A model generated the notes under the pieces. That model searched no databases, was not told where the DNA came from, and worked only from the letters and a program-made list of their open reading frames with translations. From the NCBI GenBank assembly GCA_030148645.1, contig JASBTB010000014.1:1-64000 (forward strand): a stretch of DNA of 64,000 nucleotides, read 5' to 3'. Of the stretch, positions 6,116-64,000 are shown piece by piece. Positions within the stretch are counted from its first letter, which is position 1, and every line of letters starts with the position of its first letter. Position numbers and translations under genes: made by a program. The DNA is from Demequina sp. (GTDB lineage Bacteria; Actinomycetota; Actinomycetes; Actinomycetales; Demequinaceae).

Positions 6116-8863
6116 TCAGGACGGCGCGAGCACCACGTTCTCTGTGCGCACCACGGTCGGGTCGAGAATCGCCGAACTGGAGCCGTCCTCGTGGCCCAGG
6201 CCGTCAACGCTCGGGTCGAGCGCCGTCACGGCGTCGATTACCTGCAGGCTACGCACGCGCCCGGCCGCCACGATGTCGGGTTTGGCCGCGTTGACATGGG
6301 CCACCTGGGCTTCCGGTATGAGGAGGTCGACCGACAGGATCTCGGTGCGCTGGGTTACCTTCGCGTCGGACTTGATCTTTCGTAGCGCGCTGACGGCGGC
6401 ACTCGCTGCGACAAGCACCATAGGGTCGGAGCCGTCGGCCACAGTCCGTGCGCGATCGGCAGCGGGCCACGACGCGCGGTGAATCGAGCCCTCGTTGAAC
6501 CACGACCACACCTCCTCCGTGGCGAACGGCAACACAGGCGCAAACAACCGCAGAAAAGTGTCGAGGGCAAGGGTGAGAGCGGCACGCGCCGACGCGGCCT
6601 GAGGGGAGCACGGAACGAAAGGATCGATCGGCTCCCCGAGCGCCGCGCCGTCGTATGCCCGGTTCTTGACCAGTTCGACGTAATCGTCGCAGAACGTCCA
6701 AAAGTACTGTTCGGTGGCTTCGAGGGCGCGGGTGTGGTCGTAAGCCTCCAGGGCAGCCGTGGCGGCCTCGACGACGAGGGCGACGCCCGCGAGCATTCCC
6801 TTGTCGAGCGGCTCCGTGATGGGAGCCGACGTCACGTGCGCGGTGGCCGCGACGCCGCCCTCCAGGGAGTCGGCGGCGGCCGTCGCGATGCCCGTGGCGC
6901 CCAAGACGAACTTCGAGACGTTGAGCATCTTCGTGGCGAGGCGGCGCCCGATCTTCATCTGCCCCTCGTCGAAGGCGGCGTCGCTGCCCAAGCGCGCGGA
7001 CGCCGCCCAGTAGCGCACCGCGTCGGAACCGTGGGTCTCCAGCAAGCCCATCGGCGTCACCACGTTGCCCTTGGACTTGGACATCTTCTTGCGATCGGGG
7101 TCGAGAATCCACCCGGAGATTGCCGCATGCTTCCACGGCAACACCCCGTGCTCAAGGTGCGAGCGCACTACGGAGGAGAACAGCCAGGTGCGGATGATGT
7201 CCTGACCCTGTGGGCGCAGGTCCATGGGGAAGGTCTTGGAGAACAGTTCGGGGTCGTCGCGCCAGCCGCACACGATTTGCGGGGTGAGGGACGACGTCGC
7301 CCAGGTGTCCATGATGTCCGTCTCACCGATGAAGCCCCCAGGCACGCCGCGTTGGTCCTCTGTGAATCCGGGCGCTGCGTCGGACGACGGGTCCACCGGC
7401 AACTGGTCCTCAGAAGGGGCGATGGGCGTCTCCCACATGGGGTTTGCCTCGGCGTCGAGGCGGTACCACAGCGGTATCGGCACGCCGAAGAAGCGTTGGC
7501 GGGAGATCAGCCAGTCGCCAGTGAGCCCATTGACCCAGTTTTCGTAGCGTTTACGCATGTGTGACGGCACAAAGTCGAGTTCCTCGCCATGCGCCACCAA
7601 CTGCGCGCGCAGCGACGTGTCCTTGCCGCCGTTGGCGATGTACCACTGCCGCGACGTGACGATCTCCAGCGGCTTGTCGCCCTTTTCGTAGAACTTCACA
7701 GGGTGGGTGATGGTCGTGGGCTCGCCGTCGATGACGCCGGCCTCTCCCAGCATGTCGACGATGCGTTGTTGGGCGGAGAAGACCGTCTTGCCCGCGAGTT
7801 GCGCGTAGGCGTTGCGTCCCTCGGGCGAATCGATCGCGTCGGGAGCATCGGCGAGGATGCGGCCGTCGCGTCCGAGGATGGCGCGCGTTGGCAGACTCAA
7901 TTCGCGCCACCAGATCACGTCCGTGACATCGCCGAACGTGCAGATCATGGCAAGGCCCGAGCCTTTGTCCGGTGAGGCCAGACGGTGAGCAACAATGGGG
8001 ACTTCCACGCCGAACAGTGGTGTGCGTGCGTGTCTGCCGAATAGCGGCTGGTATCGCGGGTCGTCGGGGTGTGCCACGAGCGCGACGCAGGCGGGTAGGA
8101 GTTCGGGTCGCGTGGTCTCGATGTAGAGGGACTCATAGGAGCCGGTGGCCTCTTCGAGGTCTGCCGCGGGCTCGAACGCCAGGCGGTGATACGCGCCAGG
8201 GCGCTCGCGGTCCTCCAACTCGGCCTGGGCTACAGCGGTGCGGAATGTCACGTCCCACAGCGTCGGCGCCTCCGACTGGTACGCCTCTGCGCGGGCGAGA
8301 GAACGCAGGAAGGCCTGTTGGGCGACGGCCTGAACGCGGGGCTCGATGGTCTGATAGGTGAGCGACCAGTCCACGGACAGGCCCAGGTGGCGCCACAGCG
8401 ACTCGAAGTGTTTCTCGTCCTGCGCGGTCAACCGTTCGCACAACTCGACGAAGTTGCGGCGCGAGATCGGCACCTGGTCGGCGGCCTTGATGGACTTGCC
8501 CTCGCCACCGACGTGGGGAGGCTCAAAACCCTCCGCGTAGGGCAACGTCGGGTCGCATCGCACGCCAAAATAGTTCTGCACGCGACGTTCGGTGGGTAGC
8601 CCGTTATCGTCCCATCCCATCGGGTAGAAGACCTCGCGCCCGCACATTCGCTTGTAGCGGGCGATCACGTCGGTGTGGGTGTACGAGAAGACGTGGCCCA
8701 CGTGAAGCGAACCCGACACGGTGGGCGGGGGAGTGTCGATCGAGTAGACCTCATCCCGCGTCTTGGTGCGATCAAATGTGTAGACCCCGTCGACCGCCCA
8801 CACGTCGTTCCAGCGGTCTTCGAGACCGTCCACGGTGGCTTTGTGAGGGATACGAGACGTCAT
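6116..8863 (-). CDS. valS: Valyl-tRNA synthetase
   Basis: Class I signatures: PPTVSGSLHVGHVF, KMSKSKGN, GRDGRILADAPD editing-domain region. Confidence 0.93.
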   Translation of the reverse strand: MTSRIPHKATVDGLEDRWNDVWAVDGVYTFDRTKTRDEVYSIDTPPPTVSGSLHVGHVFSYTHTDVIARYKRMCGREVFYPMGWDDNGLPTERRVQNYFGVRCDPTLPYAEGFEPPHVGGEGKSIKAADQVPISRRNFVELCERLTAQDEKHFESLWRHLGLSVDWSLTYQTIEPRVQAVAQQAFLRSLARAEAYQSEAPTLWDVTFRTAVAQAELEDRERPGAYHRLAFEPAADLEEATGSYESLYIETTRPELLPACVALVAHPDDPRYQPLFGRHARTPLFGVEVPIVAHRLASPDKGSGLAMICTFGDVTDVIWWRELSLPTRAILGRDGRILADAPDAIDSPEGRNAYAQLAGKTVFSAQQRIVDMLGEAGVIDGEPTTITHPVKFYEKGDKPLEIVTSRQWYIANGGKDTSLRAQLVAHGEELDFVPSHMRKRYENWVNGLTGDWLISRQRFFGVPIPLWYRLDAEANPMWETPIAPSEDQLPVDPSSDAAPGFTEDQRGVPGGFIGETDIMDTWATSSLTPQIVCGWRDDPELFSKTFPMDLRPQGQDIIRTWLFSSVVRSHLEHGVLPWKHAAISGWILDPDRKKMSKSKGNVVTPMGLLETHGSDAVRYWAASARLGSDAAFDEGQMKIGRRLATKMLNVSKFVLGATGIATAAADSLEGGVAATAHVTSAPITEPLDKGMLAGVALVVEAATAALEAYDHTRALEATEQYFWTFCDDYVELVKNRAYDGAALGEPIDPFVPCSPQAASARAALTLALDTFLRLFAPVLPFATEEVWSWFNEGSIHRASWPAADRARTVADGSDPMVLVAASAAVSALRKIKSDAKVTQRTEILSVDLLIPEAQVAHVNAAKPDIVAAGRVRSLQVIDAVTALDPSVDGLGHEDGSSSAILDPTVVRTENVVLAPS

Positions 8864-8956
8864 GGGGGTCATTCTTTCAGACGGGGACGCTGTCGAAGCA
8901 CTTCCTGCCCGGGGCACGCACGAGCGCTTTGCACCGGTTTGTTACTCTTCGGTTTC

Positions 8957-9373
8957 ATGAGCCAGGCGAAGATGCGTGCCGACTTCTTGAGGTCGTTGGA
9001 AGAGTTGGACGGGACGGTGGGCGGTGATCTGCCCGAAATGTTGCGCGAGATGGTGCGCTTGCGGTGTTCGCACATCAACGGTTGTTCCTATAGCGTGCGG
9101 CTCCATTCGGACAGTCTCGCGGTGCGGGGTGCGCGGGTGGACCTGATCAGCGCCCTGGCGCGCCCGGTGAAACTCATGCGGGCGGACCTCGTGTCCGGTG
9201 CGGAGGCCGCGGCGCTACGCTTCGCCGAGATTCTGACTGACTACCCACGCGGACTGGAGTTGGAGGCGCGCGATGACGCGGCGAAGTACTTCACTCCTAA
9301 GCAGTTGGGTTCGATCGTCGAGGTGGTCGCGGTGGTCAATGCGTGGAACAGGGTGACGCGCGGGTCTGAGTGA
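8957..9373 (+). CDS. Carboxymuconolactone decarboxylase / AhpD-like protein
   Basis: REMVRLRCSHINGCSYSVRLHSD resembles the CMD ...C..H motif region. Confidence 0.75.
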   Translation: MSQAKMRADFLRSLEELDGTVGGDLPEMLREMVRLRCSHINGCSYSVRLHSDSLAVRGARVDLISALARPVKLMRADLVSGAEAAALRFAEILTDYPRGLELEARDDAAKYFTPKQLGSIVEVVAVVNAWNRVTRGSE

Positions 9374-9480
9374 TCGCCGGCGCCGGGCCTGTGTGCCGGG
9401 CTCTTTGGCCGGGCTAGGCGTTGTGGCCACTGAAGCCCGGCGTCGCGGTCGCGCCGTGCGGTGTCCCCCGCCCGAGCACA

Positions 9481-10842
9481 CTAGACCGGGTCGCGACGCA
9501 GCGGTTGCGTCATGCAATGGGCGCCACCGCGCCCGCGGCCCAACTCTGAGCCCACGATCTCTAACACCTCGATCCCGGCGGCCCGCAGTCGGGCGTTGGT
9601 GTGGGTGTTGCGGTCATAGGCGACCACCACGCCGGGCTCGAGCGCCAGCACGTTGTTGCCCGAATCCCACTGCTGACGCTCCGACGCGTAGAGGTCGCCG
9701 CCGGTGGCGATGATGTGGAGCGAGTCCAACTGCATGGCCTCGGCCACCACGTCGACAAAGGGCGCTCGCTCGTGGGTGACCTCCAGCATGGAGGGGGCAT
9801 CGGCGGGCCGCAGCGAGTACGTCTCGATCCCGTCGACGATGCCGGGGAACACCGTGGCGACGTCCCTGTCTGCCAGTGTGAACACGGTGTCGAGGTGCAT
9901 GGCCGCACGTAACCTGGGCAGTTTCGCGACGATGACACGCTGCGCGGCGCTGGCGGCGAAGAGTTCGAAGGCCACTTGCGTGATGGCCTGACGCGATGAG
10001 CGCTCTGACATGCCGATCAGGACGATGCCGTGACCGATGGGCATCACGTCTCCGCCTTCGAGAGTAGCCAAACCATGATCCAATTCCGGGTCTCCCCACC
10101 AGAACTGGACCGGGTACGCGTCGGTGTCCGGCTCATCGTCCGGCAAGGCGGGCCCGTCGATCGCCGGGCCGAAGCCCGGGAGGAACTGTGCCCTGGGGTC
10201 GGCCGCATTGAACTGGGGGTGGAACGAGTAGATCGCCTTCATGATGAGCGTCTCTGCGTGGCGTGCGGGCCAGAACAGCGGATTGAGCGTGACCCCTTGG
10301 TAGATCCAGGAAGTGGTGTCCCGGGTGTACAGCGTGTTGGGAAGCGGTGGCATCAGGTAGTCCCGCATGCCTGACTCTTCACGCACCAACTGCAGGGTGG
10401 GTGGGCAGAAGTCGCGCGGCAGATCGGTCAGGGACAGGCCGCCCACGATGTATCGAGACAGGACGTCTGGCGCGAGTTCGTTGAGGAAGGCGCGTAGTTC
10501 GGTTGCCAGACCCAGGCCAACCTCGTCGGTGGTGAGTTTGCGATCGAGCAGCCACGCGCGGGCCGCGGGGATGGCCATGGTCTGCGTGAGAAGGCGGTGC
10601 AACTCGAGCACCTCGATATCGTGCTCTTCCATGAGGGTGACAAATGCTTCGTGGTCGCGCCGGGCGTTGTCGACCCACATGACGTCGTCGAAAAGGAGAT
10701 CGTGGCAGTTGGAGGGAGTCAGCCGGTTGTGGGCGAGCCCCGGAGAGCACACCAGGACCGAGCGCAGGCGGCCCACCTCGGAGTAGACGCCATAGGGCTC
10801 GGCGACGGTCGGTGGAGCGGTGGCTCGAGGAGCATCAGGCAT
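9481..10842 (-). CDS. arcA: Arginine deiminase
   Basis: [68 protein letters not shown]. Confidence 0.96.
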
Positions 10843-10902
10843 GTCGCCTCCTTGTCAGACGAAACTATCAGGGCCACGGGCCTGCCCAGGTGTTGGGCGG
10901 TG

Positions 10903-12660
10903 TCACTCGCTCAGTTGGTCGATCAATGATTTGTGCTCAACGAGGCGCGTCTCGATGAAGTCGCCGAGTACGCGGGTTTTGGCCTCGCTCCACCCGGGGG
11001 GCTGCGTCAATGCGGCCCAGGACGTCAGATTCGCGCGAACCGAGTACACGTGCCCGTATCCCTCGGGTACCGACTGGGCGGCAAGCAGGTCGAGGAGGGT
11101 TTGCCACATCGTCACGACGGGGAACCAGGTCATGCGGTCGGACACGTCCGGGGCGCGCTGGCCGTCCTTGAGCCATGCGGGCTCGGTCCATGCGAGGTTT
11201 GGATCGAAGAACACCACGGGATCGGAACCGTACTGGAGGTAGATCAACCGTGTGGGACCCCACGGCCCCGCGGGGGTGTCGAGGCCGCCCTGTTCGGTGG
11301 CGAAGCGAACGGTCCGGCCGTCGGACACGACGGGCTGCCACGGCGGCGTGCCCTCCTGCCGTGCGGCCTCAAGTTCGCGGTGCAATGGATTGACGAACGG
11401 TGGACCCACCATGAGTGCGCCGTCGATGGACTCGTTGAGAATGTCGATGTTGCCCAATACCGCTTCGACGCCGAGTGAGCCCAGGGACAGCCCGTACAGG
11501 TACAGCGCGGGCCTTCCATTCTCGGGAAGTTGCGACCAGTAGTCGTAGATGGTGCGAAACACCGTCGTCGAGGTCTGCTTGACGGCTTCCTGGTCGGCCA
11601 ACAGCGAGATCCAACTGGGCAGATACGAGTACTGCACCCCCGCGACTGCGGTGTTGCCGTTCCACAGGTATTCGACAGGGTGGACGCCTCTGGAGTCGAG
11701 CCACCCCGTGCCCGTGGTGGTGGCAATCACGAGCACGTCCCGGTCGAACGCGCCTGTGCGTTGCAGTTCTTCGAGCAGCAAGTCAGCGCGGTCCTGAAGG
11801 GTTTGCGCCGAGCGCAGGCCCACATAGACGCGGATGGGCTCCAGCGCTCCACCTCCCGAGACGGCATTGAGTTCGTCGACCGTGGGCGCCGTCGACACGA
11901 AGGCTCTACCCTGGCGACCCATGCTCTCCCACGCCACAGCGGAGTCGGGGCTTCCCGACCTGGTGGGGACCTGGGGTTGCACGACTCCGGGTTTGTCGCC
12001 ACGATCCGCGGCGGAGAAGACTGCGTTTGCCGCGGTGAAGAAACCCCTGACCAGAAGACCGGAGACCACGAGCCACAGGAGCAGTAGCAGAGCGGTGGTC
12101 GCCAGGGTGACGGCCAACCTGCGAGGAAGATAGCGGTCCAGCCAGTTGTCGACCGTCCGGAAAAGCAAGCGCAGCGCACGGCTGACCACGACCACGACGA
12201 CCGCAACGGCGAGCGCCACACCCACCACGGCTGGCCACACGTCGGGCCTGAGCTCGGGCATCCCAAAGGATTGTCGGATCTCGTTTTGCCAACCGACAAA
12301 CTGCCACACCGCCCCGGCGAGCGTCAGCGCGGCTGCCAGGGAGGCGGAGGCGCCCACGATGAGCCGGGCGCGACGCCTCAGCGTGGGGATTCCCAAGAAC
12401 CGCCACAGGGCATGACCCGATGTGCCCGCGCCATAACACACCATGAACGTCACTCCGGACGCGAGCCCCTGGACGATGGCGCCGCGCGGCAGCAGGGAGG
12501 GCAGCAGTGAGACGGAGGTGAAGAAGGCGGCGACAATGAGGCCGACGTTGTCGAACCGCACAGCGAACACACCAGGAGGCGTGCGGCGCGTGGCCGAGTG
12601 GATGTGGGGGCGATGGCGTTGGCGCGCCGGTGCTGCGGTTGCTGTGTCGCCCAGCGTCAC
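10903..12660 (-). CDS. Integral-membrane alpha/beta-hydrolase family protein
   Basis: N-terminal TM segments and YLYGLSLGSLGVE nucleophile-elbow-like motif; DSAVAWESMGRQGRAFVS region typical of the actinobacterial family. Confidence 0.75.
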   Translation of the reverse strand: MTLGDTATAAPARQRHRPHIHSATRRTPPGVFAVRFDNVGLIVAAFFTSVSLLPSLLPRGAIVQGLASGVTFMVCYGAGTSGHALWRFLGIPTLRRRARLIVGASASLAAALTLAGAVWQFVGWQNEIRQSFGMPELRPDVWPAVVGVALAVAVVVVVVSRALRLLFRTVDNWLDRYLPRRLAVTLATTALLLLLWLVVSGLLVRGFFTAANAVFSAADRGDKPGVVQPQVPTRSGSPDSAVAWESMGRQGRAFVSTAPTVDELNAVSGGGALEPIRVYVGLRSAQTLQDRADLLLEELQRTGAFDRDVLVIATTTGTGWLDSRGVHPVEYLWNGNTAVAGVQYSYLPSWISLLADQEAVKQTSTTVFRTIYDYWSQLPENGRPALYLYGLSLGSLGVEAVLGNIDILNESIDGALMVGPPFVNPLHRELEAARQEGTPPWQPVVSDGRTVRFATEQGGLDTPAGPWGPTRLIYLQYGSDPVVFFDPNLAWTEPAWLKDGQRAPDVSDRMTWFPVVTMWQTLLDLLAAQSVPEGYGHVYSVRANLTSWAALTQPPGWSEAKTRVLGDFIETRLVEHKSLIDQLSE

Positions 12661-12913
12661 GCGCCCTCCTTCGCCTCGTACACCTGACCTTACGCGCGTC
12701 GACGCGGGATGCGGGCCACCGTGCGAACAAGTCTGCGACGGGAGTGTAGGCCGTGTGTGTCCGCAAGGCCACGTGGGCTAAGTCCAGACGCAGGGCCTAG
12801 GCCCGGCTCTGCGCACCGGTGGCATACACCCGCGCGCGGCGAGGAGTTGCCCCTAGCGCTCGGCCAGGCAGAGGCAGCGGGAACGGTCGGGTCGGCCCCG
12901 GAAAAGTTGCCCG

Positions 12914-13087
12914 CTAACGCGGGAAGAGGCGCCTCAGGAGCGACGGTGCGGACTCTGGCGTCGTGCCGGGCGCGTGGCCCTGGCAGCGTTGCGTCTGAGG
13001 CACTCCGGCGAGGACCTGTTCGACGTGGTTGCCGCAGCCAGTCCAGGTGACCTTGCCGCAGATGGGGCAGGTGGCGGGGGAGCACAT
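12914..13087 (-). CDS. Small Cys-rich (CPICGK...GCGNHV) protein
   Basis: MCSPATCPICGKVTWTGCGNHVEQVLAGVPQTQRCQGH; compact Cys/His pattern. Confidence 0.6.
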   Translation of the reverse strand: MCSPATCPICGKVTWTGCGNHVEQVLAGVPQTQRCQGHAPGTTPESAPSLLRRLFPR

Positions 13088-13127
13088 AGCGCAGCCTTTC
13101 TGAAGACGTTGTGGGGACAAGTCTAGC

Positions 13128-13143
13128 ATACCCTATGGGGTAT
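13128..13143. promoter_or_regulatory. CsoR/CstR-like operator palindrome
   Basis: ATACCCTATGGGGTAT (ATACCC-N4-GGGTAT) between divergent ORFs. Confidence 0.5.
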
Positions 13144-18137: not shown

Positions 18138-19313
18138 CTACGAGGACACGCTCAGGCGCACGATCCGGTCGTCGCTGGCGCGGACGTCCCCTCGCCCGTC
18201 GGTGTTGCTGGTGATCACGTACAGCGCGCCGTCGGGGCCGACGGCGACATCGCGGATGCGTCCGAGTCCGTCCACGAGGACTTGGGGGTTGCCCAGGCCT
18301 TGCGCCGTGAGCGGGACTCGCCACACCCGCTCACCGCGCAGGGCCGCCACGTAGAGGGCCTCGCGCGTGACGGACATCCCCGAGGGCGACGCCTCGGCGG
18401 TAGCCCATTCGATCACGGGGTACGTCAGGCCGTCCACGGTCTGCCCCAACTGCGTGCCAGGTGGTGCGCCGTCGCGGGCCTCGCCAACGGGCCAGCCGTA
18501 GTTGCGACCCGGCTGGATGAGGTTGATCTCGTCGGTAGAGTTCTGGCCAAACTCGGAGGCGTACATGCGCCCGTCCGCGGCCCAGCCCATGCCCTGCACG
18601 TTGCGGTGGCCGAAAGTCCACACGCGGGTGTCGAAGGGGTTGCCTGGCGCGGCCCGCCCGTCCGCGGCGGATCCCTCGGCCACGACGCGCAGGATCTTGC
18701 CTGCGAGAGAACCCTTGTCTTGAGCCAGATCGCCGTTTCCTGCGTCGCCGGTGGAGACGTAGAGGTAGCCGTCGGGGCCAAAGGCCAGCCTCCCCCCGTC
18801 GTGATTGCGCGCCTTGGGAATGCCATCGAGCACGATCGTGGGTGCGCTCAGGGAGTTGCCGGTGAGCGACATGCGCAACACCGCGTTGCCGTCCGGGCGG
18901 CTCTGGTAGGCGTACAGCAGGGAGGGGTCCTCGGGGTGCAATGCCAGGCCCAACAACCCCGCCTCGCCTTGTGGGTCGTTCGCCGAGGCGATGTCTTGCG
19001 CTCCGGGTCCCGTCAGGGCAGTGGAGGAACCGTCGGGTGCGATGCGTTGGATGCGACCCGCATCGCGCTCGCTGACGAGCATGTCCCCGTCGGGGGTGAA
19101 GGCGATGGACCAGGGCACGTCGAGGCCGGTGGCGACGTCCCGCCGGTTCGTCACGCTTACCGGCGAACCTTCCCCGATGGTCTGGGGCGCGTCGCTGTGG
19201 GGTGTGGGCGTGGCACGGTCCGCACCGGGGGTGGGGGAGCAGGCCGCGATGATGGCGAAGACGCCGACCAGGGCGAGCGGTCCTCTGGCGCGTCGTGGGT
19301 CGTAGGCGCTCAT
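18138..19313 (-). CDS. PQQ-dependent sugar (sorbosone/glucose) dehydrogenase-like lipoprotein
   Basis: Lipobox-like IIAACS; LDVPWSIAFTPDGDMLVSERDAGRI, HNVQGMGWAADGRMYASEFGQN-type motifs. Confidence 0.88.
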   Translation of the reverse strand: MSAYDPRRARGPLALVGVFAIIAACSPTPGADRATPTPHSDAPQTIGEGSPVSVTNRRDVATGLDVPWSIAFTPDGDMLVSERDAGRIQRIAPDGSSTALTGPGAQDIASANDPQGEAGLLGLALHPEDPSLLYAYQSRPDGNAVLRMSLTGNSLSAPTIVLDGIPKARNHDGGRLAFGPDGYLYVSTGDAGNGDLAQDKGSLAGKILRVVAEGSAADGRAAPGNPFDTRVWTFGHRNVQGMGWAADGRMYASEFGQNSTDEINLIQPGRNYGWPVGEARDGAPPGTQLGQTVDGLTYPVIEWATAEASPSGMSVTREALYVAALRGERVWRVPLTAQGLGNPQVLVDGLGRIRDVAVGPDGALYVITSNTDGRGDVRASDDRIVRLSVSS

Positions 19314-19436
19314 GCTGGATCCTCATCGCCGTGGTCGGTGGCCATCGTTGGGGTGCAACGTCTCCCGCGGGCAAGACCTTCCGCGCACGTGCGCGGATGC
19401 GCAGACGTGACAGACGCCGCGGTGCAGGAGTCGCGC

Positions 19437-55905: not shown

Positions 55906-56262
55906 ATGGCGGCGAAGGACGCGGTGGGACGATACGGGGAACGCGTGGTCGCGCAGCGGCTCACAACGCTCGGCTGGGAAGTGCTCGAACGCAACTGGCG
56001 ATGCGCCATCGGCGAACTCGACATCGTCGCGGTCGACCATGACTGCATCGTCGCGGTCGAGGTCAAGACCAGGCGCAGCGTGACCTACGGCTCTGCCCTC
56101 GAGGCGGTCACACCCGTCAAAGTCGCCCGGATCCGTAGGTTGCTCGCCGCGTGGTTGGCATCGCAAACTCGAACGTTCACCGAAATGCGCATCGACGTGG
56201 TCGGGGTCACGCTGCCCGCTGCCGGGGCCGCGCAGATTGAGCACGTGCGGGGCGCCGCATGA
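55906..56262 (+). CDS. YraN (UPF0102) family protein
   Basis: KDAVGRYGERVVAQRLTTLGWEVLERNWRCAIGELDIVAVDHDCIVAVEVKTR. Confidence 0.95.
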   Translation: MAAKDAVGRYGERVVAQRLTTLGWEVLERNWRCAIGELDIVAVDHDCIVAVEVKTRRSVTYGSALEAVTPVKVARIRRLLAAWLASQTRTFTEMRIDVVGVTLPAAGAAQIEHVRGAA

Positions 56263-57191
56263 TCGGCCGCACTCGGTCCGTGGCGCTGACCGGCGTGCGC
56301 GGCCACCTCATCGACGTGGAAGCACACCTCGCGGCATCGCTCCCGGCGTTCACCCTGGTGGGACTTCCCGATACCTCCCTTCACGAGGCACGCGACCGCG
56401 TCCGGGCCGCCGTGGCGTCGTCCAGTCTGGTGTGGCCGCAGCGGCGCATCACCGTCAACCTCTCGCCCGCTTCTTTACCCAAGTCGGGGTCGGTGACGGA
56501 CCTGGCGATCGCAGTGGCGGTGATGGCCGCCGCGGGAATGATCGCGCCAGCGTCCGCAGCGCGAGCGGTTCACCTGGGCGAACTTGGTCTCGACGGTCAG
56601 GTGCGCCCCGTGCGCGGCGTGCTGCCGTCCGTGGTGGCCGCCGTCGAGGCGGGTTGTCCCCAGGTCGTCGTTCCCCAGGCGAACGCCGACGAGGCGAGCC
56701 TGGTGCCCGGTGCGGCGGTCACCGCCGTGGATTCGCTCGCGCAACTCGCGGCCATGTACGGCAACGGCGATGCCCGTCCCACCGCCAGGGGCCCCGCCGC
56801 GATTCGACAGTCAGATGCGGCCGCCGAGCAGCCTGTAGCTGACATGGTGGATGTGCGCGGCCAGACGGAGCCCCGCTGGGCGCTAGAGGTGGCGGCTGCA
56901 GGAGGTCACCACCTGCTGATGGTCGGGCCGCCAGGGGCCGGGAAGACGATGCTTGCCTCGCGCCTGCCGGGGATCCTGCCCGACATGGATCCTGCCGACG
57001 CGCTGGCCGCGACCTCGATTCACTCCGTCGCCGGCACCCTGGATGCTTCGCAGGGATTGCTCACGCGCCCTCCGTTCGAGGCGCCCCACCACTCGGCCTC
57101 GTCTGCCGCAATCGTCGGGGGAGGTGCGCGGCTGGCCAGGCCGGGGGCCATATCGCGTGCGCACGGGGGCGTGCTGTTCCTCGATGATGCG
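56259..57191 (+). pseudogene. ComM/YifB (Mg-chelatase-like AAA) 5' fragment, interrupted by mobile element
   Basis: IGRTRSVALTGVRGHLIDVEAHLAASLPAFTLVGLPD, VGPPGAGKTMLASRLPGILPDMD, then similarity stops after AHGGVLFLDDA; the rest is not in this window. Confidence 0.92.
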
Positions 57192-57391
57192 GGAAAGTTG
57201 ATATTACCTGTACGCAACGCTCCACAGTTCACGATATACTTGAACCAAGGACGAAGCCCAGAGGGCAAGTCACACACCGTCAGAGGCGGTGGACAGCCGG
57301 CCAGACCGGCATGTGCCAGCGGCACAGTTCACAGCAACCGGCCCGCGCTATCAGCGCAGTTGGCCACGCCACCCCCTCTGGAGGTACCGCC

Positions 57392-58468
57392 ATGACGCGC
57401 GGAATCATGTCTGCATCGGATGTCCCCTCGACCACAATCGACGGCGAAGACATCAACACCATCTGGGCCGAATTCCAGGCCACGCTTGACCTCGCGAACG
57501 AGCACCGTTCTGCGATCGCCGAGCTCTTCACCTACACGACCACACTCGAGTCCGACCTCGTCGCTCAGATGAGCACTGAGGATGACTTCGAGGAAGCCTC
57601 AGAATTCGGTGTCCCGACCTCGATCAACCAGAACTTCGAGAAGCTGCGTATCGGCTTCCCGCTGAGCTGGTTCGACAAGGCCACCCGCTTCACGTGGAAG
57701 TTCCTCAGGGACGCCACCTCCGAGCAAGTGCGCACAGTCCACTCCCAGGCGCTCGAGGCTGACAACCGCCTCGTGTTCCGTGGCGTGATGAACGCGCTCC
57801 TCGGTGGCGTCTCCCGCCAGAACGAGAAGGGGACTGCGGTCTACCCGCTGTGGAACGCGGACTCCGTTGTGCCGCCAGCCTTCGCGGGCAACACGTTCGC
57901 GGGAACGCACACCCACTACCTGACCACCAATTCCGCCAACATCGACGGCGAGGACATCAAGGACCTCATCACGCACATCACCCACCACGGCTACGGGACC
58001 AACCCTGGCGAGCGTGTGATTGTGCTTGCCAACCCTGCACAGACCGAGGACATTCGCGGCTTGCGCGTCGCGGATGGGTCGCCCTTCGACTTCATCACGT
58101 CTGACGGTGCCCCGGCGTACCTCACGACTGAGTCGTTGGTCGGTGAGCGTCCTCCGTCGACGTTTGAGGGGCTCAAGGTCATCGGCAGCTTCGGAGATGC
58201 GTGGGTGGTCGAGGACCACTTCGTGCCGTCTGGCTACGTGATCGCGCTCGCGACCGCTGGGCGCAACTCGCCCAGCAACCCCCTCGCATTCCGCGAGCAC
58301 ATTCGACCTGAGTACTCGGGCCTGCGCCAGATCCCTGGATCGAACGCGCAGTACCCGCTCGCCCAGGCCTACTACTCGCGGGGTTTCGGGGTCGGCGTAC
58401 GCCACCGTGGAGCCGCGGCGGTGATGCAGGTGACTGTGAGCACCACGTACACGGCTCCGACCATCTAG
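57392..58468 (+). CDS. HK97-fold-type phage major capsid protein
   Basis: Overall MCP-like sequence incl. C-terminal AQAYYSRGFGVGVRHRGAAAVMQVTVSTTYTAP; RBS CTGGAGG upstream of ATG 57392. Confidence 0.75.
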   Translation: MTRGIMSASDVPSTTIDGEDINTIWAEFQATLDLANEHRSAIAELFTYTTTLESDLVAQMSTEDDFEEASEFGVPTSINQNFEKLRIGFPLSWFDKATRFTWKFLRDATSEQVRTVHSQALEADNRLVFRGVMNALLGGVSRQNEKGTAVYPLWNADSVVPPAFAGNTFAGTHTHYLTTNSANIDGEDIKDLITHITHHGYGTNPGERVIVLANPAQTEDIRGLRVADGSPFDFITSDGAPAYLTTESLVGERPPSTFEGLKVIGSFGDAWVVEDHFVPSGYVIALATAGRNSPSNPLAFREHIRPEYSGLRQIPGSNAQYPLAQAYYSRGFGVGVRHRGAAAVMQVTVSTTYTAPTI

Positions 58469-58559
58469 GACTCCGAGGGCGCCGAGCTTTGGTTGGGGTT
58501 CGGCGCCCTCGGTACATCTCAAACCAACCACCCAACCACCAACCAAGGAGAGTTCCATC

Positions 58560-59066
58560 ATGAGTGCAAGCCAGCAAGCAGATCAGGTATTAGCCGCAAT
58601 GGGCCACGCCCAGCGCCTCGCATGGGTCAACGCGATCCTCCACGAGGACGAGCGGATCAGTGAGGCCATCCTCAACTCATCCCGCGGTCAGGGAGTGGAC
58701 CCGCACGAAGTGACAGGACGTGCAGACCTCGTAGAGCTCGTGGTCGTGCGCGCCTTCGAGCCGACCATCGACCCAGAATCCGGGGCGGTCATTCCTGGAC
58801 CCACTGCCCACATGACCGACATGGTCACACCGGTCGATCAGGTCGTCATCCAGCCCATCGGGTGGTGCTTCAACCACTCAGTCTTTGACGCACTTCTCGC
58901 TGAAGACATCGAGGATGCCGAGTTTCAGCTGGTTCCGATCAAGACGCTCTGGGTGCCCTCGGGTGCAATCCTCGTGCAGTTCAGCCTGTGCCACTCCTGC
59001 GCTGATCGTCTTGAGGCTCAGTACGGCACGCTCGACTGGAGGCCGATCGGTCATGGCACGGTGTGA
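58560..59066 (+). CDS. Hypothetical protein, capsid-linked
   Basis: Good RBS (AAGGAGAG), overlaps next gene; no family recognised. Confidence 0.6.
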   Translation: MSASQQADQVLAAMGHAQRLAWVNAILHEDERISEAILNSSRGQGVDPHEVTGRADLVELVVVRAFEPTIDPESGAVIPGPTAHMTDMVTPVDQVVIQPIGWCFNHSVFDALLAEDIEDAEFQLVPIKTLWVPSGAILVQFSLCHSCADRLEAQYGTLDWRPIGHGTV

Positions 59067-59703
59067 GGAAACCGTATCGACACCGAACAGTCCCAACTTT
59101 GGGAAGCAGTGTCAACGACTCGCCATGCATGGAACGCAAAGGTGCTTCGTCCACAGTGACCGCACCAACCTGCCCGCGAAAGTAGAAATCGGCCGGATCG
59201 ATCGACCGCGGGTTCAGTGCTCCGCGACCAAGCGCAGCGGGGAGCGGTGTCGAAACTACGCGATTCATGGCTCGACCGTCTGCACGCGTCACGGAGGGAA
59301 TCTTCCCGGCGTGAAGAACGCGGCGAGGCAACGGCTGCTCAATCTGGTGAGTCCAGCACTCGCAGAGCTTCAACGCATCATCGACAGCTCTACGACATCT
59401 GATGCGGATCGGCTCAAGGCGATTCAGTTGGTGCTGGACCGCACGGGTTACCACGCACGGACTGAGCTCACGATTGATGCAGAACTCAAGCCGTGGGAGG
59501 CCCTGACTGGCGGTGAGATCGTTCGGGACCTTCCCGACGACCCGAACCTGCCAATCATTGATGCAGAGGTGGTTTATGACGACGACGAGCCCGAGGACGA
59601 TGGCACGCCTCGCGCGATCGAACAACTAGCCGACGTCTTGCCGATCTCGGCAGGGCCGAAGCGGTCCAAGTCGTCAGCTCAACCGCCGCTCCACCTGAGG
59701 TAG
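59053..59703 (+). CDS. Terminase-small-subunit-like / Cys-HGG phage protein
   Basis: CSATKRSGERCRNYAIHGSTVCTRHGGNLPGVKNAARQRLL, a motif often encoded next to actinophage terminases; helical remainder. Confidence 0.55.
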   Translation: MARCEETVSTPNSPNFGKQCQRLAMHGTQRCFVHSDRTNLPAKVEIGRIDRPRVQCSATKRSGERCRNYAIHGSTVCTRHGGNLPGVKNAARQRLLNLVSPALAELQRIIDSSTTSDADRLKAIQLVLDRTGYHARTELTIDAELKPWEALTGGEIVRDLPDDPNLPIIDAEVVYDDDEPEDDGTPRAIEQLADVLPISAGPKRSKSSAQPPLHLR

Positions 59704-59706
59704 CTA

Positions 59707-59744
59707 GCGACGCTGACGGGGACCGCCGGCCCCGTCAGCGTCGC
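59707..59744. terminator. Perfect 15-bp hairpin ending the capsid module
   Basis: GCGACGCTGACGGGG-ACCGCCGG-CCCCGTCAGCGTCGC followed by GCAGTTCTCTTT. Confidence 0.8.
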
Positions 59745-59760
59745 GCAGTTCTCTTTACAC

Positions 59761-59794
59761 ATTCTGTAGAGAATCTTGAACATCACGCTATAAT
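59761..59794 (+). promoter_or_regulatory. Promoter with palindromic operator for the replication module
   Basis: ATTCTGTAGAGAAT perfect palindrome (59761-59774) overlapping the expected -35 region of a consensus -10 TATAAT (59789-59794). Confidence 0.6.
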
Positions 59795-59994
59795 TTTCAT
59801 GTAAGTCAAATCACTCCCGCTCCCTGTGGGACCTAAGAGAAAGCAACCCGCCAGAATCAACCCCGACAGCGACCGGGGTCCCGCAAGGGAGAATGACCGC
59901 TCTTCGCAACGACAGGTTCGCGTTCGATGGACATCAGATGCCGGAGGCTCTTTGAGCCCCCACAGAGGCACGGCGGTGTCTGGAGAACCATCCA

Positions 59995-60276
59995 ATGTCG
60001 CGAACCCAGGCGCCAAGGCGCCCAAACAAGTACGGTGTCCAGCCGCTCCGTAAGGAACTAGCACGCCAGCGCTGGACTGTTGCCGCTGCCGCTCGACAGT
60101 TGGGCGTCGAGTATCCGCAGCTCTACAACACGGTCATCGGCCGCATCACGCCCACGATCCACCTCCGCAACGCGCTACCCACGCTGCTCGATGTGCCGCT
60201 GGAGAAGCTCTTCACGGTCGAGGCGCTCAAGGCCAGGCCACGGACGCAACGCGCTCGCCGTAAGGCTGGTGAGTGA
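59995..60276 (+). CDS. Small HTH (XRE-like) DNA-binding protein
   Basis: GVQPLRKELARQRWTVAAAARQLGVEYPQLYNTVIGRITPTIHLRNALPTLLDVPLEKLFT. Confidence 0.65.
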   Translation: MSRTQAPRRPNKYGVQPLRKELARQRWTVAAAARQLGVEYPQLYNTVIGRITPTIHLRNALPTLLDVPLEKLFTVEALKARPRTQRARRKAGE

Positions 60277-60424
60277 CGTGGCAAACACCGAGCAACCCGA
60301 GTGGTTGCGAGAGATGTACCGCGAGGCGGCACGAGAGGCGACCAAGGGCGTCGTTGTGCCTGACTCCGTCATCGACCGCGCATTCGCTTTCGTACGAGCA
60401 ACGGAGGCGCGCTGTGACGACTAG
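60269..60424 (+). CDS. Small hypothetical protein
   Basis: VSDVANTEQPEWLREMYREAAREATKGVVVPDSVIDRAFAFVRATEARCDD; overlaps both neighbours in operon style. Confidence 0.45.
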   Translation: MSDVANTEQPEWLREMYREAAREATKGVVVPDSVIDRAFAFVRATEARCDD

Positions 60425-62384
60425 CGAAAATGACGAGGCCCCCCGCACCGCGGAGGGCCTCACCAAGGGTGAACAAGCAGATTCAGACGTTTTCGATTAT
60501 GCACTGGAAATCGCCGTTGCGCGTGGCTGGAAATTGTTTCCTTGCCACTCGATTACGCGCGGCGAGTGCACGTGCTCGAAGGGTGCGGATTGCCCCCATG
60601 CTGGCAAGCACCCGCGGACACTCAACGGCGTGAAGGACGCGTCGGCCGATCAAGAGACCATCGCGATGTGGCGCGAGATCTACCCGGATGCCAACTGGGC
60701 TCTCGCGTGTGGTGCTGGTTCTGGGGTGATGGTCGTTGACGTTGACCGTCGTGGCGGCATCGACGGCTTCGACTCGCTCGACTTGCTTGCACTTGAGCGC
60801 GGGGGGCTGGAAGCACTCACGGGCGGTGGTGGACTGCACGTCTTCGTGGCGTATGAGGCAGGGTTCAAGAACCACAATCCCCTGCTGCCGGGCATCGACT
60901 TCAAGACAGACGGTGGCTACGTCATCCTGCCGCCGAGTCGTCACAAGAGCGGAAGCTCGTACCAGTGGCACACCCTCAATGAGCCAGTGTCCGTCTCTCC
61001 TGAGCTGCGCGGCTATCTCACACGGCCCAAGGAGCCGGCACTGTCGCGTCAAGGTGCGTCGCTCATGGACCCCGTCCCTGAGGGCGGCCGCAATGACGCC
61101 CTGATACGGAATCTCGGCATCTGGCGTCGAAAGCTCGATGATGACAGGCCAGCGGTAGAGCACCTTGCGTGGGGCTGGGGGAGAAGCGTCGGCCTGGATG
61201 ACCAGGAGATCGCTCGGACCATCGAAAGTGCCTGGCGCTTGCCTCACGTCGACCTGGCGATCTCGTGGCCTCTGGCGAGCCCTGAGGAAGTCGATCAGTT
61301 CGAGCGCATGGTTGGGGAGCGGCTGATAAGGCACCGCGTCGAACGCGAGGCGAAGCAGCGCTTCGAGATTGAGTCACGCCCTGAGGCTCCTGGCTTCGAC
61401 GTGGCAACGCTCGGTGAGGTGCTGGCTCGCGCTGATGAGTCAGCCTGGCGGATTGATCGGCTCATGCCGGCGGACGCCAGCACGCTCGTCGTCGCCCAGC
61501 ACAAGACAGGCAAGACGACGCTCATGCTCAACCTGGTGAGGTCACTTCTCACGGGGTCTGCATTCCTCGGTGAACTAGACGTTGACCCGGTGGAGCAGAA
61601 GGTGGCCATGCTCAATCACGAGGTGTCCGGTGGCCAGATCGCACAGTGGGCAGACGAGGCCGGCGTCCCTCATGACCGATTCCTGCTGGTCAACCTGAGA
61701 GACAGGCGCAACCCGTTCGCTCACGCTGACGATCGGGCAGCGCTCGCGGCTCACCTCCGTGACGCCGGTGTCGAGACGCTCATCGTGGACCCGTTCGGTC
61801 GTGCCTTCAGCGGTCAGAACCAGGACAGCGCGTCAGAGGTTGGCGCCTGGCTTGCGACGCTGGACGAGTTCGCTCGTGCTGACGTGGGCGCTCGTGACGT
61901 GATCCTGACCGCTCACGCTGGCTGGGAGGGGGAGCGCACTCGTGGCTCCACTGCCCTCAATGACTGGCCTGACGCGATCTGGACCATGACGAAGAACGAG
62001 CGCTCAGGGGAGCGCCACTTCAAGGCTGACGGTCGTGACGTGAGTCTCGACAAGTCTCCCCTTGAGTGGCACGAGGGACGGCAGCTGAAACTGCTTGACG
62101 CTGATGCTCGCCGCTCTCAAGCGGTGTTCGTGACGCAGACCCGCATGCAGCAAGAGATTCTTGCGGTCGTCAAGGAGTCGCCTGGCTGCTCTCGAAGGGG
62201 GATTGAGAAGTGCGTGGGTGGTAACTCTGCCCAACTCCGCCAGGCTATCGACTCCCTCGTGAAGCTCGGATGGATAGAAGACAAGGGCACGAAGGCTGGC
62301 TCTCAGTTCTTCGCTGTCGATCGTCCCACCGGATCAGAGGGAATCACTACCCCTACTGACCCTCCAAAGATGATGTACGGCTGA
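60414..62384 (+). CDS. Bifunctional DNA primase/polymerase (prim-pol) fused to RepA-like AAA ATPase
   Basis: N-term ALEIAVARGWKLFPC...HPRTLNGVKDAS...NWALACGAGSGVMVVDVDRRGG; C-term VVAQHKTGKTTLMLNLVRSLLTG Walker A and ETLIVDPFGRAF Walker B. Confidence 0.85.
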   Translation: MTTSENDEAPRTAEGLTKGEQADSDVFDYALEIAVARGWKLFPCHSITRGECTCSKGADCPHAGKHPRTLNGVKDASADQETIAMWREIYPDANWALACGAGSGVMVVDVDRRGGIDGFDSLDLLALERGGLEALTGGGGLHVFVAYEAGFKNHNPLLPGIDFKTDGGYVILPPSRHKSGSSYQWHTLNEPVSVSPELRGYLTRPKEPALSRQGASLMDPVPEGGRNDALIRNLGIWRRKLDDDRPAVEHLAWGWGRSVGLDDQEIARTIESAWRLPHVDLAISWPLASPEEVDQFERMVGERLIRHRVEREAKQRFEIESRPEAPGFDVATLGEVLARADESAWRIDRLMPADASTLVVAQHKTGKTTLMLNLVRSLLTGSAFLGELDVDPVEQKVAMLNHEVSGGQIAQWADEAGVPHDRFLLVNLRDRRNPFAHADDRAALAAHLRDAGVETLIVDPFGRAFSGQNQDSASEVGAWLATLDEFARADVGARDVILTAHAGWEGERTRGSTALNDWPDAIWTMTKNERSGERHFKADGRDVSLDKSPLEWHEGRQLKLLDADARRSQAVFVTQTRMQQEILAVVKESPGCSRRGIEKCVGGNSAQLRQAIDSLVKLGWIEDKGTKAGSQFFAVDRPTGSEGITTPTDPPKMMYG

Positions 62385-62386
62385 GT

Positions 62387-62497
62387 GCGTCCACCGCGTC
62401 CAAGGTGCGTCCAGGAGCCTTGGACGCAGGCTGCACGAAAGCGCGTCCACTGCGTCCACCCCCTTTAGGGGGGACGCAGGGACGCAGCGTGGGACGC
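62387..62497. repeat. Iteron-like cluster of GCGTCC(A) motifs, candidate replication origin
   Basis: GCGTCCA at 62387, 62396, 62407, 62443, 62452; inverted TGGACGC at 62421; inverted GGGACGC at 62471, 62479, 62491; CCCCC-TTTA-GGGGG between arms. Confidence 0.8.
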
Positions 62498-62512
62498 ACT
62501 TGGCTTGGTGGC

Positions 62513-62551
62513 GGGGGTTGGGGGTGTGACTGGTGGGGACCTGGGAGGGGG
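62513..62551 (+). other. G-run tract with G-quadruplex potential
   Basis: GGGGGTTGGGGGTGTGACTGGTGGGGACCTGGGAGGGGG. Confidence 0.5.
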
Positions 62552-62800
62552 TGTGAGCGTGGTCGGCTGGCTGGGGGTGACCTGCAGGGGTCAACGGGAC
62601 CTGCACGCATCCGCAGGTCGGCTCCGTTTCGCTGGCACACATCCAGGAGCCGCACGGTCTCCTGTGGGCTCACGGGAGGCTTCCAGAGGCTAGTTACCAG
62701 GGCCTGAGCGTTTCGTGAGTCCTGTGGAGCCCGTATGGCTCCGCAGCTACTCCTAGAGGATCGGTGTCATAACGGCCGAAATCGCGACACTGTTGATCGC

Positions 62801-63469
62801 ATGGAAGCGGTGATCTACCTGCGGGTATCAACACAGGGCCAAGCGGTCGATGGGTACGGCCTTGACGTCCAAGAGCAGGCATGTAGGGCATACAGCGAGT
62901 CGAGCGGGTTCAGCGTCGCCGAGGTGTTCAGGGACGAGGCGGTATCTGGCACGCTGCCTGCCCATGAGCGGCCTGGTCTGATGGATGCGCTCGGCATGTT
63001 GAAGGACGGGGACGCAGACGTGCTGATCGTTGCCCGCCTGGACCGGCTCGCGCGCCAGCTCACCACGCAGGAGGTCATCCTCGCCGAGGTGTGGAAGGAC
63101 GGTGCAGAGGTCCACACTGCTGAAAGCGGGAAGGTCTTCAGGGACGACCCAGACGACCCGATGCGAACTGCCATGCGCCAGATGGCCGGCGTCTTCGCCG
63201 AGTTGGACCGTGCCATGACGGTCAAGCGCCTGCGTGACGGTAGGCGCGCGAAGGAGGCAAAGGGTGGGAAGGCAAATGGAAGCTACCCGTATGGCTTCGC
63301 CAAGGAGGGACCGATCCCTGCTGAGCTGGAGGTCATGCGCGACGCCGCTGCCCAGAAACGTAAGGGACGCTCCTGGGAAGCGATCGCCGCAGACCTCAAC
63401 GCGCGTCAGATCACGCAGCGCAACGGGAAGCCGTGGACGCGGCAGAACCTCGCGAGGGTGATGAGGTAG
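62801..63469 (+). CDS. Short serine recombinase (resolvase catalytic + short recombinase domain)
   Basis: MEAVIYLRVSTQGQAVDGYGLDVQEQACRAYSESSGF, DVLIVARLDRLARQL, RSWEAIAADLNARQITQRNGKPWTRQNLARVMR then stop. Confidence 0.92.
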   Translation: MEAVIYLRVSTQGQAVDGYGLDVQEQACRAYSESSGFSVAEVFRDEAVSGTLPAHERPGLMDALGMLKDGDADVLIVARLDRLARQLTTQEVILAEVWKDGAEVHTAESGKVFRDDPDDPMRTAMRQMAGVFAELDRAMTVKRLRDGRRAKEAKGGKANGSYPYGFAKEGPIPAELEVMRDAAAQKRKGRSWEAIAADLNARQITQRNGKPWTRQNLARVMR

Positions 63470-63471
63470 TG

Positions 63472-63918
63472 CTAGACGGCGTCTGGGCGGATGTCCATCC
63501 CGCCTGCCTCCGCCTGAGTGAGGGAACCCGATCCGAGTTCGTTGCCCTCTGAGTCCTCGAAGACCCAACGAACCACGTGCGGTTCCTCGATGAGGGTGGC
63601 CATGTCTGCGACCATCCGGCCAGGAGCATTGGCGCGCAGGCGATCATCGAACGCCTGGTTGACCATACGAGGGTTGCCCCCGTCGATGCGGTTGTAGTCC
63701 CACCAGTCCAGCGTCTTGCGGAGTGCTGCGACCTGCTCCGGTGCGGGGTTGTCGAAGTCATCGTTGGCGAGCTTCAGCGCCAGCCGGCGGAGCCTCTCGG
63801 CGCTCGCGACCTGGAGTTCACCCGCTGGCGTGAAGTGGTGGGCACCGTTGAGGTGTGGCTGCATTGGCGCCTGTCGCATCTGGCCGTTGGCTGGTGCGTT
63901 GATGTCGTTCTCTTCCAT
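63472..63918 (-). CDS. Hypothetical element-encoded protein
   Basis: ORF with AGGAGGAAG RBS just upstream of ATG 63918; no family recognised. Confidence 0.5.
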   Translation of the reverse strand: MEENDINAPANGQMRQAPMQPHLNGAHHFTPAGELQVASAERLRRLALKLANDDFDNPAPEQVAALRKTLDWWDYNRIDGGNPRMVNQAFDDRLRANAPGRMVADMATLIEEPHVVRWVFEDSEGNELGSGSLTQAEAGGMDIRPDAV

Positions 63919-64000
63919 GTCTTCCTCCTACTACGTTGCGGAGCAGTGCCAGGAAGTGGCCGACGTCAGGTTCATTGGACAGCAAGAGACGCCGGCCAGG

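Follow-up and report, generated by a model that had tools for sequence, protein, structure and literature searches.

Our question was what a single phage capsid gene, with no other recognisable virion gene around it, is doing in the genome of an actinobacterium. The gene lies near the end of a 64,000-nucleotide stretch of Demequina sp. (contig JASBTB010000014.1, positions 1 to 64,000; hereafter the window), in an element that interrupts the host gene comM. An earlier reading of this DNA by letters alone (the sequence-only reading) had proposed a compact 6.8-kb phage satellite that supplies its own capsid subunit and packaging adaptor and borrows the rest from a helper phage. The gene content supports this idea well, with an HK97-type capsid and no other virion genes found as far as the right end of the element. 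We consider it probable that the element is an integrated satellite of the phage-inducible chromosomal island (PICI) type, whose own major capsid protein (MCP), probably together with a partner protein, redirects or replaces capsid assembly of the helper.

The limits of the element could be drawn from the contig that carries the window, which is 86,165 bases long and allowed the element to be followed past 64000. The whole element spans 57186-68129 on the contig and measures 10,944 bp, so that the lone-capsid content described earlier stands but the size does not: the window cuts the element, and its real length is 10.9 kb. It splits comM, the two flanks of which share a 2-bp core, GA, and joining the comM halves at this GA restores a single unbroken ComM frame. 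In the two closest genomes of the genus comM is uninterrupted (a 512-aa frame), and locus L097 has a contiguous empty comM site. The same LFLDE codons of comM host three elements of the family (in the window at 56259-57187, L008 at 8508-9430 and L013 at 8543-9490). Elements of genomes G043 and G176 are among those in comM at these codons, and the stretches compared around them contain a serine integrase.

The identification of the capsid gene is firm at the sequence level. Its product matches phrog_3990, 'major head protein', with an E-value of 2.5e-111, and two phage capsids of known structure, 8giu with 4.5e-81 and 8saj with 7e-79. No genes for the large terminase subunit (TerL), portal, protease, scaffold or tail were found in the element at the sensitivity used, either in its window part or in 64000-68129. 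Extension to the 3' comM fragment, proposed with the sequence-only reading because such genes there would point to an ordinary prophage, yielded instead a restriction-modification-like gene pair and the integrase. The ordinary prophage is rejected, since no TerL, portal or tail gene was found as far as the right end.

The same picture extends to the relatives of the element. We compared 31 chromosomal neighbourhoods of the MCP gene, 25 with homology labels and six read gene by gene (the window, L008, L009, L013, L014 and L015; for L013 and L014 the virion-gene content was judged by reading alone). The screen for virion genes used proteins from four phages with the same MCP type, covering TerL, portal, protease, scaffold, adaptor and tail functions, and it gave no match in any of the 25 labelled neighbourhoods. 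With the identical screen, every one of 80 viral contigs that carry this MCP was recognised as phage. Because IMG/VR selects for viral genes, this result serves as a positive control of the screen and should not be read as a frequency. Additionally, a Pfam scan of 88 non-core proteins from 13 elements had none of these virion functions among the families listed (25 of 31); a PHROG scan of the 13 elements is weaker evidence because the families listed are 25 of 70.

What these loci do share is a recurrent set of an integrase, a short serine recombinase, an HGG-type small terminase subunit (TerS), a primase or RepA, a helix-turn-helix (HTH) protein, the partner protein and the MCP. The family is widespread in actinobacteria. 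Among the 25 labelled neighbourhoods the short serine recombinase is present in 20 and the TerS-like protein in 18, both lower bounds because some loci are contig fragments. The set has been inserted independently into comM, several tRNA genes and a CpaF-like gene, and the integrases and replicases differ between insertions. Elements bounded by attachment (att) sites are narrow in size, with a mean of 12,374 bp (n = 11, standard deviation 680, range 10,944-13,137); the bound of L030 in this sample is a 14-bp repeat, and a remnant, L063, was excluded. This remnant (7398-12758) is att-bounded, 5.3 kb long, and retains an integrase, a shortened recombinase, the MCP and a few small genes. Within the order, 5 of 395 genomes have a relative of the MCP; in the class the figure is 9 of 395, and in Mycobacterium, a genus recognised here by its PE proteins, 60 of 249 sampled species.

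One Mycobacterium assembly, G706 (L021, L023-L026), has at least eight short contigs with this MCP; the DNA of the five compared is 93-99.7% alike, and their ends lie just outside the MCP gene; they are either amplified copies or an assembly effect. A plasmid version of the element was sought and gave no close plasmid match. Elsewhere in the Demequina genome, another HK97 capsid gene (PF05065, 3e-23), not related to the first, lies at the end of contig C22 (L003, 9553-10674), a few kb from GTP-cyclohydrolase-like and sugar-transport genes, possibly another satellite or a prophage remnant.

The MCP has its own history. In a tree of 50 rows, a branch with support 90/91 has 38 satellite MCPs together on one side. 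A tree of 126 rows, enlarged by 77 phage MCPs that come from viral contigs, places 36 satellite MCPs in a single clade (SH-like approximate likelihood ratio test, SH-aLRT, 100) apart from 88 phage MCPs. The nearest phage MCPs are only 38-43% identical to that of the element, and the genomes of the related phages listed are about 56-72 kb; Onyinye, Patience and Predator are examples of phages with the related MCP. Recent capture of a phage capsid is not favoured given this distance and the separate clade. The MCP is under purifying selection: its ratio of nonsynonymous to synonymous substitution rates (dN/dS) is 0.07-0.12 over six pairs, compared with 0.18-0.26 for TerS (two pairs) and 0.11-0.22 for the recombinase (two pairs), all approximate because synonymous divergence is mostly about 1 or higher. 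Deletions specific to the clade were considered as a marker and not used, since one is also present in phage Kurnik and L100; a slight shortening near residue 247 is the sole separator of satellite MCPs among the examples shown, and the difference in N-terminal length depends partly on uncertain start calls. Two loci, L015 and L031, group with the phages in the 126-row tree (support 79-92), which gives their capsid a second, separate origin. In partner, TerS and short recombinase both loci nevertheless have the types of the rest of the family. Their backbone is that of the satellites and their capsid derives separately from phages, which suggests capsid exchange.

The two genes that follow the MCP recur as its neighbours. 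The second of these encodes the TerS-like protein, which scores 2.7e-9 against the HGG_STG family NF041373, above the family cut-off, and 1.4e-6 against phrog_10899, 'terminase small subunit'. Its family is too variable for profile scanning with an alignment; among 20 members, 19 match phrog_3678, 13 match phrog_10899 and 11 match phrog_2538, also a terminase small subunit. In five of the viral contigs that carry this MCP (L103, L124, L128, L171 and L173), a gene matching the satellite TerS family is located upstream of TerL, and gp4 of phage Onyinye matches phrog_10899 at 1.5e-26. From these matches we infer that the HGG protein acts as a TerS. The first gene encodes what we propose to call the capsid-partner protein. 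Relatives of it adjoin the MCP in 7 of 7 non-Mycobacterium members aligned, and iterated profile searches found one partner-family protein per locus in 25 of the 31 neighbourhoods. A wider family including Mycobacterium is thus likely, not certain, because the bridge to Mycobacterium consists of two first-round matches near 2e-4 and some late members cover part of the profile. Neither the partner nor nine further members match any PHROG, and no match was found in the phage stretches searched. Partner and MCP occur in the identical 5 of 395 genomes of the order, the five that also supplied the profile seeds. A single-sequence fold prediction of the partner was uninformative (pLDDT, the predicted local distance difference test, was 36).

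The remaining genes of the element are collected in Table 1. Family searches back the TerS-like, primase-polymerase/RepA and serine recombinase assignments of the sequence-only reading, and its HTH protein near threshold; its terminator is a hairpin, though one lacking a T-run, and its iterons correspond to an iteron-like cluster of GCGTCCA and its complement. Four of the five copies of the 8-mer TGCGTCCA in the window fall within this apparent cluster. The start of the short recombinase was set by homology, the open reading frame (ORF) itself opening at 62735. Anti-phage-like cargo is seen at L009, where 18263-19342 encodes a PD-T4-6-like kinase, and in the present element as the methyltransferase and HNH genes (contig 64194-66442; L002 8194-10442).

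Table 1. Features of the comM-inserted element and its flank (contig positions, identical to window positions up to 64000).
Feature	Position	Strand	Basis or remark
comM 5' part	56259..57187	+	Mg_chelatase/ChlI Pfam; broken after ...GVLFLDE; attL, crossover GA 57186-57187
Whole element, window part	57186..64000		continues to 68129
Major capsid protein, HK97 type, satellite clade	57392..58468	+	phrog_3990, PDB matches, trees
Capsid-partner protein (name proposed here), 168 aa	58560..59066	+	directly after MCP; no PHROG match
HGG zinc-finger small-terminase-like protein (TerS)	59053..59703	+	NF041373, phrog_10899, phrog_2538
Perfect 15-bp hairpin, probable terminator without T-run	59707..59744	+	3' of the MCP-partner-TerS gene block
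Small HTH protein, candidate regulator	59995..60276	+	HTH_8 2.2e-4, just under Pfam cut-off
Primase-polymerase/RepA-like ATPase, replication initiator	60414..62384	+	Prim-Pol 2.6e-29, AAA_25 2.3e-26, PriCT_1 (Pfam)
GCGTCCA direct and inverted repeat cluster, probable origin iterons	62384..62490		directly 3' of replicase
Short serine recombinase, about 220 aa, resolvase/invertase size	62801..63469	+	Resolvase 1.7e-32
Hypothetical protein, 148 aa, without family	63472..63918	-	Pfam, PHROG and other family searches
HNH endonuclease-like ORF	64194-65417	+	Pfam HNH_2
C5 cytosine methyltransferase	65384-66442	-	Pfam DNA_methylase
Large serine integrase, 490 aa	66615-68087	-	Pfam Resolvase, Recombinase and Zn_ribbon_recom; then comM 3' part

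Taken against the features by which PICIs are recognised (PMC6092414), the element is a separate island in comM that has an att site with a GA core and a large serine integrase of its own, and relatives show the site empty. Its 10,944 bp, like the 10.9-13.1 kb of its att-bounded relatives, lies within the usual 10-20 kb, and it has its own Prim-Pol/RepA replication gene with a predicted origin in the adjoining repeat cluster. The candidate for an Stl- or AlpA-type regulator is a small HTH protein, just below the Pfam cut-off. The element also has the integrase and MCP gene that define candidate PICIs in Mycobacterium (PMC10654092); its own host belongs to a different family and has no PE proteins. 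Of the full head and packaging module of capsid-forming PICIs (cf-PICIs), with portal, protease, connectors and TerL beside TerS, it has the MCP and TerS-like genes alone.

From these parts a life cycle may be proposed. The large serine integrase would insert the element into comM, and in the presence of a helper phage, on which the satellite would depend, it would excise and replicate from its iterons with its own primase/RepA. The TerS-like protein would direct the helper large terminase onto satellite DNA. The satellite MCP, probably with the partner, would co-assemble with the helper MCP or replace it on the helper scaffold, protease and portal, giving satellite particles with helper tails and most likely small heads for about 12 kb. 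The short serine recombinase probably resolves multimers, and the restriction-modification-like genes would be cargo that may also guard the host. SaPIbov5 offers the closest precedent, as its Ccm is a capsid-fold protein built into small capsids (PMC6893505).

Several points weigh against a capsid-redirecting satellite. A search of viral contigs with the single MCP protein gave no match; with MCP alignment A1 it gave 127 relatives, the best 80 of which are all phages. These 80, from a collection (IMG/VR) that selects for viral hallmarks, therefore give no virome indication of satellite packaging. A helper is not apparent in the host's own assembly (94% complete, 152 contigs), which has neither a PF03354 TerL nor a PF04860 portal, other TerL and portal families not having been searched. 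The narrowness of the element sizes is judged within this family. Finally, in the Escherichia coli PICI EcCICFT073, deletion of the capsid gene left interference intact and the packaged DNA was phage-sized (PMC6092414), which means that a satellite MCP need not resize capsids. Because of this last result we keep, as an unlikely but serious alternative, an MCP that is purely an interference factor: a dominant-negative subunit would poison the helper capsid, and multimers of satellite DNA would be carried in helper heads of the normal kind. EcCICFT073, also with a capsid homologue, is reported to be packaged in DNA of phage length (PMC6092414, PMC10111431), a resolvase-size recombinase would suit multimers, and the restriction-modification-like cargo fits an anti-phage role. 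However, the MCP is close to full length and has a dN/dS of about 0.1 over divergent elements, as expected of a working subunit (poisoning is still compatible with this), its constant neighbours are TerS-like and partner proteins, and the elements are narrow in size.

Two other explanations are much less probable. That the element is a degenerate prophage which kept its capsid gene by chance finds a parallel in the decayed L063, but we regard it as the least credible of all: independent insertions that differ in integrase and replicase share this gene set, the frames are open, dN/dS is low and the capsid clade is separate. Conservation across many species disfavours a decaying prophage. Scarcely more credible is an autonomous mini-virus or gene-transfer particle with a non-tailed shell of MCP and partner, an alternative also raised by the sequence-only reading, for which we found no evidence. 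The two proteins are constant companions and the partner has no PHROG match, which would fit such a shell, but we recognised in the window element neither a packaging ATPase nor a portal nor a lysis gene, and carrying a TerS-like gene implies that the terminase partner comes from outside. Within the favoured reading of a capsid-redirecting satellite, we offer tentatively a bolder version: one long-lived actinobacterial satellite lineage might use its dedicated capsid clade for most of its shell or for the whole of it, with the partner setting size or scaffolding, and depend on unrelated helpers for the portal, the terminase motor and the tail alone, L015 and L031 being an independent capsid exchange on the same backbone.

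The earlier statement that the arrangement matches no satellite class was too strong, since SaPIbov5 (through Ccm), Gram-negative PICIs and Mycobacterium candidate PICIs have capsid homologues. SaPIbov5, a type 2 Staphylococcus aureus pathogenicity island, resembles the present element in its integrase, replication module and MCP homologue, and its Ccm is required for size redirection of its cos-phage helper (PMC6893505, PMC6092414). It differs in host phylum and capsid lineage; here the MCP is family-wide, usually with a TerS-like gene and an orphan partner where screened, and its function is predicted. Gram-negative PICIs (EcCICFT073, PmCI172) have int, a regulator, a primase-replicase, an ori and often a lone capsid gene, and an MCP is present in 21 of 29 reference PICIs (PMC6092414, PMC10111431). 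Like these and SaPIbov5, our element has an MCP without TerL, portal or tail genes, but the EcCICFT073 capsid gene is dispensable and the likeness drawn here is one of gene content. The cf-PICIs and the Streptomyces satellites MulchRoom and MiniFlayer (PMC10690885) also encode their own capsid protein and packaging genes, but carry TerL, portal and other head genes, none of which was detected here. A further published group is the candidate PICIs of Mycobacterium, islands with an integrase (tyrosine integrases at tRNA genes, serine integrases elsewhere) and an MCP, with replication proteins and terminase in some (PMC10654092). Our Mycobacterium members fit that definition and some may be identical elements. 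That set, however, was defined by integrase and MCP alone and its capsids are highly diverse, whereas the family described here has one capsid lineage, a core of TerS, partner and short recombinase, att-bounded sizes and members beyond Mycobacterium. The same paper terms phiRv1 and phiRv2 of M. tuberculosis PICI-like; these actinobacterial islands are alike by description, and we claim no capsid relation.

Lone satellite capsid genes, and integrase and MCP islands in Mycobacterium, are therefore already published (PMC10111431, PMC10654092). A defined family with one capsid clade, TerS and partner, a short recombinase, a narrow size and non-Mycobacterium members was not found in the open-licence PubMed Central papers searched. 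Capsid piracy through an MCP homologue is known from few satellites, and its mechanism was unsolved as of a 2019 review (PMC6893505). In the present case a whole family has the capsid homologue as its common marker, reaching 60 of the 249 Mycobacterium species sampled, with its own phylogeny and a partner new to the phage families searched. Prophage annotation is affected as well, in that an MCP hit alone is no proof of a prophage. The family can serve as a comparative system for what turns a capsid protein into a satellite capsid, one that is testable in M. smegmatis, with phages carrying related MCPs already sequenced.

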